DNA of 64,000 nt from Phycicoccus sp. M110.8 (GTDB lineage: Bacteria > Actinomycetota > Actinomycetes > Actinomycetales > Dermatophilaceae): contig NZ_JAWDIC010000004.1 in the NCBI RefSeq assembly GCF_032464895.1, positions 1 through 64,000 of the forward strand. The letters run 5' to 3'. Below, piece by piece: positions 226 to 63,642 of this stretch (position 1 is the first letter of the stretch; every line of letters starts with the position of its first letter). The notes under the pieces were generated by a model. It did not search any database. It worked only from the letters and a program-made list of their open reading frames with translations, and was not told the origin of the DNA. A program made the position numbers and the translations under genes.

Positions 226-3200
226 ATGTCCCCGCAGAACGCCTCCAGCACCGACTCGTTCGTCCACCTGCACGTGCACACCGAGTACTCGATGCTCGAC
301 GGTGCCGCCCGCATCGGCGACCTGTTCCACCGCGCCGCCGAGATGGGGATGCCGGCGCTGGCGACCACCGACCACGGGTACGTGTTCGGCGCGTACGAGT
401 TCTGGAAGAAGGCCCAGGGGACGGGCGTCAAGCCGATCATCGGCGTCGAGGCGTACGTGACGCCCGGCACGCACCGCACCGACAAGACGCGCGTGCGGTG
501 GGGCGAGGAGCACCAGGCCGGCGACGACGTGTCCGGCTCCGGCGCGTACACCCACATGATCCTGTTGGCGCGCAACAACAACGGGCTGCACAACCTGTTC
601 CGGATGGACTCCATGGCGAGCCTGGACCAGGTCTACGCCAAGTGGCCGCGGGTCGACCGTGAGCTGCTCAGCCAGTACTCCGGCGGCCTCATCGGCACCA
701 CCGGCTGCCCCTCGGGCGAGATCCAGACGCGGCTACGGCTCGGGCAGTACCGCGAGGCGCTGCAGGCCGCGAGCGACATGCGCGACATCTTCGGCAAGGA
801 GTTCTACTTCTGCGAGCTCATGGACCACGGGCTCGACATCGAGCGCCGGGTCCAGAAGGACCTGCTGCGCCTGGCCCGTGAGCTCGACCTGCCCCTGGTG
901 GCGACCAACGACCTGCACTACACCAGCCCCGAGGACGCCAAGGCGCACTCGGCCCTGCTGTGCGTGCAGTCCGGCTCGACCCTCATGGACCCGAACCGGT
1001 TCAAGTTCGACGCCGACGACTTCTACCTCAAGAGCCCGGCCGAGATGCGCCACACCTGGCGCGAGCTGCCCGAGGCCTGCGACAACACGCTGCTCATCGC
1101 CGAGATGTGCGACATCTCGTTCACCGAGGGCGAGGGGCGGTTCATGCCGCGCTTCCCCTGCCCGCCCGGGGAGAACGAGGAGAGCTGGTTCGTCAAGGAG
1201 GTCGAGTCCGGCCTGCGCGAGCGGTTCCCCGGCGGCGTCCCCGAGTACGCGACGAAGCAGGCGGCCTTCGAGACCGAAGTCATCGTCTCGAAGGGGTATG
1301 CCGGCTACTTCCTCGTCGTCGCCGACTTCATCAACTGGGCCAAGCGCAACGGCATCCGCGTCGGTCCGGGGCGTGGCTCGGGTGCCGGCTCGATGTGCGC
1401 GTACGCCATGCGCATCACCGACCTCGACCCGATCCCGCACGGCCTGATCTTCGAGCGGTTCCTCAACCCCGAGCGCATGTCGATGCCCGACTTCGACGTC
1501 GACTTCGACGAGCGCCGGCGCGGTGAGGTCATCAAGTACGTCACCGAGAAGTACGGCGCCGAGCGGGTCGCGCAGATCGTCACGTACGGCACCATCAAGG
1601 CCAAGCAGGCCGTCAAGGACGCCGCCCGCGTCATGGGGCACCCGTTCTCGGTGGGGGAGCAGCTCACCAAGGCGATGCCGCCGGACGTCATGGGCAAGGG
1701 CGTCCCGCTCTCGGAGATCTACAACAAGGAGCACAAGCGCTACGGCGAGGGCGTCGAGTTCCGTGCCCTCGTCGACTCCGAGCCGCACCTGCAGGAGGTC
1801 GTCGACACCGCGAAGGGGCTCGAGGGACTGAAGCGGCAGTGGGGAGTCCACGCCGCCGGCGTCATCATGTCCAGCGAGCCGCTGATCGACGTCATCCCGA
1901 TCATGCGCCGCCTGCAGGACGGGCAGGTCATCACCCAGTTCGACTACCCGAGCTGTGAGTCGCTCGGCCTGGTCAAGATGGACTTCCTCGGACTGCGCAA
2001 CCTCACGATCCTCGACGACGCCATCGAGAACGTGAAGGCCAACCGCGGTGAGGACATCGACCTCGACGCCCTGTCCAAGGACACGACCGACAAGGCCACC
2101 TATCAGCTGCTCCAGCGCGGTGACACCCTCGGTGTCTTCCAGCTCGACGGCGGCGGCATGCGCACGCTGCTCAAGCTGATGCAGCCGGACAACTTCGAGG
2201 ACATCTCCGCGGCCCTCGCGCTCTACCGGCCCGGGCCCATGGGCGTGAACGCCCACACCAACTTCGCGCTGCGCAAGAACGGCAAGCAGGCGCTCACGCC
2301 CCTCGACCCCCAGCTCGAGGGCAAGCTCCAGCAGGAGATGATCGACGCCCTCGGCCCGATCCTCGGCACGACCTACGGCCTGGTCATCTACCAGGAGCAG
2401 GTCATGGAGATCGCTCAGAAGCTCGCGGGCTACACCCTCGGCAACGCCGACCTGCTCCGCCGCGCCATGGGCAAGAAGAAGAAGGAGGTGCTCGACGCCG
2501 AGTACGTCCCCTTCTCCGAGGGCATGAAGGCCAAGGGGTTCAACGAGGCCTCCATCGCCGCCCTGTGGGGCGTCCTGGTCCCGTTCTCGGACTACGCCTT
2601 CAACAAGGCGCACACCGCGGCATACGGGCTGGTGTCGTACTGGACCGCCTACCTCAAGGCGAACTACCCGGCCGAGTACATGGCCGCGCTGCTCACCAGC
2701 GTCGGCGACGACAAGGACAAGTCCGCCCTCTACCTCGGCGAGTGCCGGCGCATGGGCATCAAGGTGCTGCCGCCCGACGTCAACGACTCGGTCGCGCGGT
2801 TCGCGGCCGTCGGCACCGACATCCGCTTCGGCATGCAGGCCATCCGCAACGTCGGCCACAACGTCGTCGAGGCGATCGTGCAGGCGCGCGAGGAGAAGGG
2901 CCGCTTCACCTCGTTCAAGGACTTCCTGTCCAAGTGCCCGGCCGTCGTGTGCAACAAGCGCACCATCGAGTCGCTCATCAAGGCGGGCGCGTTCGACGGG
3001 CTCGCCGAGACGCGGCAGGGGCTGCTGCGGGTGCACGAGGCGTACGTCGACAACTTCGTCGACATCAAGCGCCAGGAGGCCATCGGGCAGGACAGCCTGT
3101 TCGGCGGCTTCGGCGACGACGACTCGGGTGCCTCGGTCGACTTCTCGGTCCTGCCGCCCATCCCGGGTGTCGAGTGGGACAAGAAGACACTGCTCGGGTT

Positions 3201-62580: not shown

Positions 62581-63642
62581 GTGAGCCGCCCTGACGGTCG
62601 CAGGGCCACGACCTGCGCCGCCCGGCGCGGCGCGGTTCCCGGCTCCATCCTCGGGGCGGCGCTGGCCGCCCTGGTGGCCCTGGGCGCGGGCTGCTCGAGC
62701 GGTTCACCCGGCCACCCCACCTCGGTGGCGTCCACGACCGGGTCGTCCCCGGCCTCGTCGGCGCCGGCGTCGACGGGTGCGGGCCCGGGCCGGTCGACCG
62801 CGACGACGTCCGCGGGCGCGACCGGGTCCGCTGCCACGAGCGCATCCGGCGGCCCGGCAGCAGTGGGGCCAACCAAGCTGCTCGTCGTCGTCATGGAGAA
62901 CCACTCGCTCGCGCAGATGCGGGCGCAGATGCCGTACACCGAGTCCCTGGCGCAGCGGTACGGCTACGCCACCGCCTGGTCGGCGGTGCGGCACCCGTCG
63001 CTGCCGAACTACCTGGCCATCGCGTCGGGGAGCACCCACGGGGTCACCGACGACGCGGCTCCTGCCCAGCACCCCCTTCCGGGCGCCACGGTCTTCGGCC
63101 GCGCCCTGGCCGCCGGCTCGACGGCAGCGGTCTACGCCGAGGGCATGGCCCGGCCGTGCCAGCAGGAACCCGAGGGCCGGTATGCCGTCAAGCACAACCC
63201 GTGGGCGTACTTCCCCGCGGAACGAGCAGCCTGTGAGCGTCACGACCTGCCGCTCGACGCCCTGCAGGAGGCCGTTGCGGCCGGGACGCTCCCGGCCGCC
63301 GGCATGGTGGTCCCCGACCTGTGCCACGACGCGCACGACTGCGGGCTCGGCGTCGCCGACGACTGGTTCCGCACGTGGATGACGCGCATCCAGACCGGCC
63401 CCGACTGGCGCTCGGGCCGGCTCGTCGTCGTGCTGACCGCGGACGAGGACGACCACTCGTCCGGCAACCGCGTGCTCACCGTGGTGGCGCACCCGTCCCT
63501 GCACCACGTGGTCGTGACGGCTCCGCTCGACCACTACTCGCTCACCCGGCTCTACGCCGAGGTGACGCGCACCGCCCCTCTCGGGCGGGCGGCGGGAGCC
63601 ACCTCGGTGGCCGCGGCGTTCGGCCTGCCCCTGCCGCGCTGA
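62581..63642 (+). CDS. Phosphoesterase-family lipoprotein
   Basis: A 353-residue secreted protein. The N-terminal signal ends at LGAGC; a Ser/Thr/Ala-rich linker of about 60 residues precedes the catalytic domain. That domain matches the phosphoesterase family of acid phosphatases and phospholipases C (LLVVVMENHSLAQM, RHPSLPNYLAIASGSTHG, VLTADEDDHSSGNRV). The metal-ligand Glu-Asn and the Asp-rich late motif are intact. The GTG start lies 10 bases after the transpeptidase stop, so the two surface proteins probably form an operon. The substrate is unknown. Confidence 0.85.
   Translation: MSRPDGRRATTCAARRGAVPGSILGAALAALVALGAGCSSGSPGHPTSVASTTGSSPASSAPASTGAGPGRSTATTSAGATGSAATSASGGPAAVGPTKLLVVVMENHSLAQMRAQMPYTESLAQRYGYATAWSAVRHPSLPNYLAIASGSTHGVTDDAAPAQHPLPGATVFGRALAAGSTAAVYAEGMARPCQQEPEGRYAVKHNPWAYFPAERAACERHDLPLDALQEAVAAGTLPAAGMVVPDLCHDAHDCGLGVADDWFRTWMTRIQTGPDWRSGRLVVVLTADEDDHSSGNRVLTVVAHPSLHHVVVTAPLDHYSLTRLYAEVTRTAPLGRAAGATSVAAAFGLPLPR

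Follow-up and report, generated by a model that had tools for sequence, protein, structure and literature searches.

Chi is read by an enzyme that loads at a DNA end, travels in a single direction and meets only the copies on one strand, and HIP1 of cyanobacteria is a palindrome and an extremely over-represented octamer. Strand polarity is used to define proteobacterial Chi in the relevant passages of PMC8022716, and DNA uptake by Haemophilus is described in a passage of PMC1939737 as independent of the orientation of the uptake word. AdnAB resects DNA breaks in mycobacteria and their relatives; whether it answers to Chi is given as not known in a passage of PMC4824097 (2016) and as unclear in one of PMC13309787 (2026). 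Here we describe a short word, GTATGCCG, in the genome of Phycicoccus sp. M110.8 (G000; 4.12 Mb). It was noticed in a window comprising the 64,000 nucleotides at positions 1 to 64,000 of contig NZ_JAWDIC010000004.1. We read it as a functional strand-specific signal in the DNA that selection or drive maintains throughout the chromosome, most likely Chi-like, with AdnAB as candidate reader; this reading is tentative, and we put its probability at roughly 0.42.

Abundance of the word and codon usage

A first-pass annotation, made from the letters of the window, had counted about 40 copies of the heptamer GTATGCC/GGCATAC. The exact count is 40, of which 21 are on the plus and 19 on the minus strand (Table 1), and the 15 example coordinates given there are right to 0-2 bases, copies found at 1296, 4318, 5266 and 53209 having been placed at 1297, 4319, 5268 and 53210. 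The over-representation stands, whereas the chance figure of about 6 proved too generous, 100 dinucleotide shuffles of the window giving a mean of 2.20 and a largest count of 6. Many copies had been said to extend to a longer word, and 37 of the 40 complete the octamer GTATGCCG. The core of the over-represented word is this asymmetric octamer.

With the word read backwards as control, GTATGCC occurs 2,594 times in the whole genome (1305 + 1289) against 293 (153 + 140), and GTATGCCG 1234 + 1242 times against 74 + 61, a density of one octamer per 1.7 kb. Composition and codon controls were run on a 464-kb sample of the genome, consisting of the window and 20 pieces of 20 kb. An order-3 Markov model expects 15 copies of GTATGCCG in this sample, where 278 are observed. 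Judged from 296 TATGCC copies, the octamer tends to be followed by Y (70%) and then G (76%). Most of the 24 single-mismatch words of GTATGCCG lie near the Markov background; those raised are GGATGCCG (92 observed, 45 expected), GTGTGCCG (43 and 26), GTACGCCG (54 and 36.5) and GAATGCCG (9 and 3.3), and among single-mismatch words with more than 10 copies the rise is at most about twofold.

The claim that codon choice is bent to make the word holds. Within the called genes of the sample, TAT and GCA codons are bound to the word, 109 of the 130 TAT codons lying inside GTATGCC, and the word occurs in several reading frames. When the 304 called genes were shuffled synonymously 30 times, a procedure that preserves proteins and codon usage, GTATGCC fell from 209 to 17.2 ± 4.8 copies (maximum 29), and GTATGCCG from 202 to 8.2. 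The word thus stands far above both the Markov and the synonymous expectation. Copies lie in genes and outside them, as had been noted, with a density of 0.60 per kb for called genes and 0.64 per kb for the sequence outside; the gene calls are home-made and cover 75% of the sample, so that "outside" takes in missed genes. The excess over shuffles and the similar density inside and outside genes together indicate that the word itself is kept. It is no codon artefact, being retained in and out of called genes.

Three explanations from composition were weighed against these numbers. Mutation bias or codon usage alone would account for the TAT and GCA codons tied to the word and for the count of GTACGCCG in genes, which is 40 against a synonymous expectation of 58, but it would leave unexplained the contrast with the shuffles, the density outside called genes, the presence of GTACGCCG above its Markov expectation and the conservation of sites between species; its probability is negligible. 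C-to-T decay or a Vsr-like origin is not supported as the main cause, because the precursor GTACGCCG is above the Markov expectation and only about 18 copies below the synonymous one. Avoidance of competing words, which the first-pass annotation had also offered, fails as the main cause on the same shortfall of about 18, set against an excess of the word of about 190 in genes.

Individual sites are also conserved. Between the window and the corresponding locus of Knoellia koreensis DB2414S (G001), 9 of 12 sites in the alignment are unchanged, where octamers with an equal number of A and T are kept at a background rate of 0.37; in the comEC region of the same two genomes the figure is 10 of 12, with a background of 0.30. 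Conservation is weaker in other genome pairs, and in many of them not significant.

Strand-specific spacing

Spacing was analyzed for 297 sites of the own-genome sample, leaving out piece L027, where a presumed island starts. Gaps between copies on the same strand are far fewer than at random: 1 against 16 below 200 bp, 12 against 38.5 below 500 bp, and 33 against 71.7 below 1 kb (z -6.2), and the avoidance is present in both halves of the sample. Pairs on opposite strands are at chance over the same distances (20 observed and 18 expected, 52 and 46, 96 and 91.1). A fresh 200 kb of Knoellia koreensis gave same-strand gaps of 2 against 18, 22 against 42 and 49 against 75.2 (below 1 kb, z -4.9), and opposite-strand pairs of 28 and 21, 54 and 52, and 115 and 100.6. 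When the loci of other genomes with at least 4 copies were pooled, same-strand avoidance appeared along with more opposite pairs than expected (120 against 85 below 500 bp). None of six control octamers of similar count, a set from which the word itself was excluded, showed same-strand avoidance.

The avoidance extends over 1-2 kb, and as a result neighbors tend to alternate in orientation, with opposite to same ratios of 180:89 in the own genome and 131:62 in Knoellia koreensis; the control set for the own-genome alternation test contained the word itself. Repulsion holds for sense-sense as well as for antisense-antisense pairs and is clearer in the own genome than in Knoellia, which points to an effect on the DNA strand and not on the mRNA. 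The word seems to be read strand-specifically: a nearby second copy seems useless on the same strand, and each strand seems to bear its own series. We consider this strand rule to be the finding most worth following.

A directional Chi-like signal would produce such a rule. A helicase-nuclease, for which AdnAB is the candidate, would enter at a DNA end and track along the DNA, and a word met in the right orientation would make it stop degrading and instead prepare the end for recombination. A two-ended break or an incoming linear fragment would need one word for each end, and hence one series for each strand, from which it would follow that copies are evenly spaced within each strand and that the leading strand is not favored. 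We infer three things: the reader starts at DNA ends and tracks from there, this reader is AdnAB, and the word serves to protect DNA or to promote its recombination; two-ended breaks and incoming linear fragments would likewise create a demand for copies on both strands, with no polarity along the replichores. The strand-specific spacing argues against an orientation-blind uptake sequence and for a directional Chi-like signal, a possibility that the earlier list of readings did not include; from that list the bending of codon choice stood, and segregation and avoidance did not.

Segregation had been proposed in the form of an architectural or segregation motif. A site bound by an abundant protein that organizes or segregates the nucleoid, whether architectural, KOPS-like or of the Noc/SlmA kind, would suit a word that is found genome-wide and evenly spaced. 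Polar motifs, however, favor one strand per replichore, and here the strands are balanced in the sampled pieces, plus and minus counts being closer to each other than chance would make them (chi-square 6.3 over 21 pieces, without L027). A protein that binds the double strand would not limit repulsion to copies on the same strand, and some 2,500 copies are far above the numbers of Noc or SlmA sites, which are far fewer per genome. We regard this explanation as highly improbable.

Distribution, dialects and candidate readers

The word was followed through tool family f1, whose 71 genomes include the own genome and which is wider than the NCBI Intrasporangiaceae, taking in Janibacter massiliensis (G058) and an Austwickia (G063). 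The named genomes whose lipA loci lie nearest to the window are Phycicoccus sp. Soil748, Pedococcus and Knoellia koreensis. Of the 71 genomes, 41 reach a density of 140 or more GTATGCCG per Mb, among them Knoellia, Phycicoccus and kin; a further 3 fall between 45 and 140, and the remaining 27 stay below 45. In 46 genomes taken from 19 other families of the order, the density is never above about 65 per Mb. At the level of lipA loci, at least 4 copies occur at 14 of the 26 best (identity at least 78%), and none of the other 54 has more than 2. On a tree of AdnA and AdnB from 58 genomes, enrichment switches at least 11 times.

Some non-enriched f1 genomes hold a one-letter variant of GTATGCCG in its place, so that the comparison of relatives, which had been suggested from the window, returned both enrichment and dialects. 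GGATGCCG is carried by G036 (1977 + 1972 = 3,949, control 289, with only 40 GTATGCCG), by G026 (1966 + 1850, control 392) and, more weakly, by G011 (674 + 662, control 310), and GTACGCCG by G049 (1942 + 1961 = 3,903, control 310), G033 (1081 + 1135, control 143) and G034 (687 + 672, control 167). One genome, G053, has two words, GTATGCCG at 1217 and GGATGCCG at 2195 copies. The dialect differs between sister rows of the AdnA and AdnB tree, namely G036/G048, where G048 has 3,225 GTATGCCG, and G026/G031. Outside f1, 24 searched genomes of family f19, taken to be Microbacteriaceae as several named Microbacterium loci share the word, hold 485 to 4,831 GGATGCCG, about 3 to 28 times their controls. 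Most of the other word-poor genomes sampled gave no clear frequent word in 20-40 kb each.

Other frequent words were seen along the way. CGAAGGGGG or CGAAGGGG is over-represented in G046 (L041, L069), G047 (L042, L070) and Janibacter corallicola (L088), and is unlike the GTATGCCG group. Some genomes of family f4 have GGATGCCG moderately raised, up to eightfold (G134, 534 against 67). Demequina loci L136, L146, L149 and L153 share a frequent word around GGGACGATGCG, one nonamer occurring 30 times against 1.8; a locus from a metagenome-assembled genome (L103) has GGACGCCG 34 times in 21 kb against 5.5 expected, perhaps a further dialect; and in Flexivirga (L095) GTATGGCG occurs 14 times alongside 13 copies of GTATGCCG.

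The word is scarce in the one presumed island examined. A lower-GC stretch of at least 57 kb (G000:C1, about 2,163,180 to beyond 2,220,000; L027, L079, L080) contains 4 copies, against an expectation of about 34. It begins within a gene for a TadA-family ATPase, whose profile match is cut, and encodes a 2,080-aa RHS-repeat protein; we read it as an island.

The main rival to the Chi-like reading is a DNA uptake sequence, in which a competence receptor prefers the word and transformation spreads it by molecular drive. Density, balanced strands, patchiness, the motif-poor stretch and one-letter dialects even in sister genera (G036 against G048, and GTACGCCG in G049) all agree with it. So does part of the machinery: ComEC is found in 64 of 65 f1 genomes and T2SSE-family ATPases in 65 of 65, 64 of them above the cut-off, ComEA adjoins ComEC in G000 (L054), and Tad-type genes are present there; transformation of Micrococcus luteus uses Flp/Tad pili, ComEA and ComEC according to the relevant passages of PMC6370729. 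On the other side, an orientation-blind receptor, as the passage on Haemophilus in PMC1939737 implies, should make opposite copies repel too, and no such repulsion is seen, so that uptake would fit the spacing only if it were directional, proceeding from the word along one strand. Mismatched forms are over-represented in Haemophilus and mostly near background here, and ComEC is present irrespective of the word. Searches with the models of type IV pilin (PF07963, 2 of 65 genomes) and PilM (PF11104, 3 of 65) matched nothing in G000, Tad-type minor pilins being outside the search. Of the idea of an uptake motif raised from the window, then, the occurrence on both strands, patchiness, dialects and motif-poor island support it and the strand-specific spacing does not; we think an uptake sequence unlikely, though less so than any other rival.

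Two candidates within the competence machinery were set aside: ComEC or the T2SSE ATPases as the switch, as they are found with and without the word, and a type IV pilus as the receptor, as neither pilin nor PilM has a match in G000. In G004, the comEC profile matches in two adjacent pieces (G004:C1:1517076-1517881), and this genome is still word-rich.

Asymmetric sites of octamer-like length with a modifiable A exist for methyltransferases and BREX-like enzymes, and restriction normally leads to avoidance of the site. A modification or recognition site, of methyltransferase, BREX-like or HIP1-like type, with the word retained for a genomic role of the modification, could accommodate patchiness and dialects through what would be exchangeable specificity subunits. 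The 12- to 25-fold excess over synonymous shuffles is the opposite of the avoidance that restriction should yield, however, strand-specific spacing over 1-2 kb would be unexpected, and HIP1 is palindromic where GTATGCCG is not. We judge this explanation improbable.

For the Chi-like reading, the reader was sought among helicase-nucleases. Adjacent proteins at G000:C3, about 148.4-155.1 kb, match nearly the full length of both chains of structures 6ppj, 6ppr and 6ppu, which we take to be mycobacterial AdnAB, and AdnA is present in 42 of 44 further genomes. With kinship ignored, two columns look striking: AdnA carries Ala503 in 31 of 35 enriched genomes and in 2 of 16 non-enriched ones, and AdnB carries Gly290 in 34 of 34 and in 8 of 17. 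This column comparison omitted five dialect and three weak genomes, and counted G034, a carrier of GTACGCCG, as non-enriched and G053, with its two words, as enriched. RecBCD was rejected as the reader: RecC (PF04257) has no match in G000 nor in 12 f19 genomes, and in f1 it is found in 7 of 32 enriched against 12 of 23 non-enriched genomes (three weakly enriched ones, one with RecC, set aside), an association that is not significant on the tree.

A stand-alone PDDEXK_1 nuclease of 298 aa (L243:7873-8769, minus strand) is encoded about 10 kb from adnAB. Matches of its type occur in most enriched or dialect genomes and in few others, kinship being ignored, and its neighborhood gave no lead.

Several observations weigh against a Chi-like signal read by AdnAB. 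AdnA is present with or without the word, AdnAB being near universal in f1 and the word patchy. Tree-aware pair tests of AdnA positions 503, 692 and 347 and AdnB positions 1113, 732 and 157 gave nothing significant, and across two sister pairs that differ by the T-to-G switch of dialect, AdnA has 3 parallel differences and AdnB 5, inside the range of 1-9 for other non-sister splits of the same five genomes. Dialect switching among relatives is fast and nearly complete, which suggests drive by frequent recombination and fits uptake at least as well as Chi. Strand polarity was seen neither in the genome-wide counts of GTATGCCG nor in the sampled pieces, the origin and terminus being unmapped. 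The same spacing test on Chi of E. coli (450 kb, 95 sites) gave clustering on one strand, with 25 gaps below 1 kb against 12, and no repulsion; same-strand spacing is therefore no known mark of Chi. Finally, the Microbacterium word GGATGCCG is as frequent and randomly spaced (265 sites in 200 kb of G106); it may be a separate matter, or may be free of the spacing constraint.

Table 1. Copies of GTATGCC in the window, with the base that follows the heptamer on its own strand
Word	8th base	Position	Strand
GTATGCC	G	1296..1302	+
GTATGCC	G	2619..2625	-
GTATGCC	G	4318..4324	+
GTATGCC	G	5266..5272	-
GTATGCC	G	5731..5737	-
GTATGCC	G	9290..9296	-
GTATGCC	G	12121..12127	+
GTATGCC	G	12139..12145	-
GTATGCC	G	14507..14513	+
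GTATGCC	G	14907..14913	-
GTATGCC	G	16447..16453	+
GTATGCC	G	16590..16596	-
GTATGCC	G	20361..20367	+
GTATGCC	G	24321..24327	+
GTATGCC	G	24482..24488	+
GTATGCC	G	25569..25575	-
GTATGCC	G	27719..27725	+
GTATGCC	G	28682..28688	-
GTATGCC	G	30804..30810	+
GTATGCC	G	32374..32380	-
GTATGCC	G	34174..34180	-
GTATGCC	T	35119..35125	+
GTATGCC	G	35266..35272	-
GTATGCC	G	36979..36985	+
GTATGCC	G	40090..40096	-
GTATGCC	G	41030..41036	+
GTATGCC	G	42106..42112	+
GTATGCC	G	42954..42960	-
GTATGCC	G	44601..44607	-
GTATGCC	G	46112..46118	+
GTATGCC	G	47538..47544	+
GTATGCC	G	51377..51383	-
GTATGCC	G	52169..52175	+
GTATGCC	G	53209..53215	-
GTATGCC	A	53763..53769	+
GTATGCC	G	56390..56396	+
GTATGCC	G	56851..56857	-
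GTATGCC	G	57184..57190	+
GTATGCC	A	58125..58131	-
GTATGCC	G	63180..63186	+

Significance and comparison with known systems

Among the open-access literature matches listed, none described the word as a signal in genomes, an uptake sequence in Actinobacteria or a Chi for AdnAB. In AdnAB-type bacteria, GTATGCCG and its one-letter dialects could be the first Chi-like signals, read by strand, self-spreading, selected at both ends of incoming or broken DNA and hence unpolarized, marking self against foreign ends for the end-resecting enzyme and changing dialect between sister genera, although in this full form we hold the proposal to be doubtful. GTATGCCG and its natural dialects in sister genera offer ready substrates and specificity controls for the AdnAB Chi question. 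Should the word be an uptake sequence instead, it would be directional, and new for Actinobacteria among the literature matches listed. In both cases a signal in the DNA takes precedence over codon preference at thousands of short sites in each genome, and analyses of codon usage, phylogeny and gene transfer in the family need to reckon with it.

Formally, GTATGCCG is neither a proven Chi, as polarity and RecBCD were not found, nor a classical uptake sequence, for which orientation-blind spacing and a type IV pilin would be expected. With Chi, which is GCTGGTGG in E. coli, has Chi-like counterparts in other bacteria and is read by RecBCD or AddAB, it shares the form of an over-represented asymmetric octamer with one-letter variants in relatives, scarcity in the one motif-poor lower-GC stretch examined, and an orientation that apparently matters. 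It differs in lacking strand polarity, in repelling copies on the same strand and in occurring in a genome where RecC was not found, and it is about three times denser than E. coli Chi, for which the relevant passage of PMC8022716 gives one per 5 kb. The DNA uptake sequences (DUS) of Neisseriaceae and uptake signal sequences (USS) of Pasteurellaceae resemble it in density, occurrence on both strands, patchiness within a family, dialects with a shared core and some genomes without any, as far as the relevant passages of PMC3630211 go; strand-specific spacing, little excess of mismatched forms and no type IV pilin found in G000 set GTATGCCG apart. Its dialects differ between sister rows, whereas DUS dialects are reported, in the passages concerned, to track the phylogeny of the core genome.

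HIP1 of cyanobacteria is likewise an extremely over-represented octamer of many but not all related genomes, and unlike that palindrome GTATGCCG is asymmetric and apparently read by strand.

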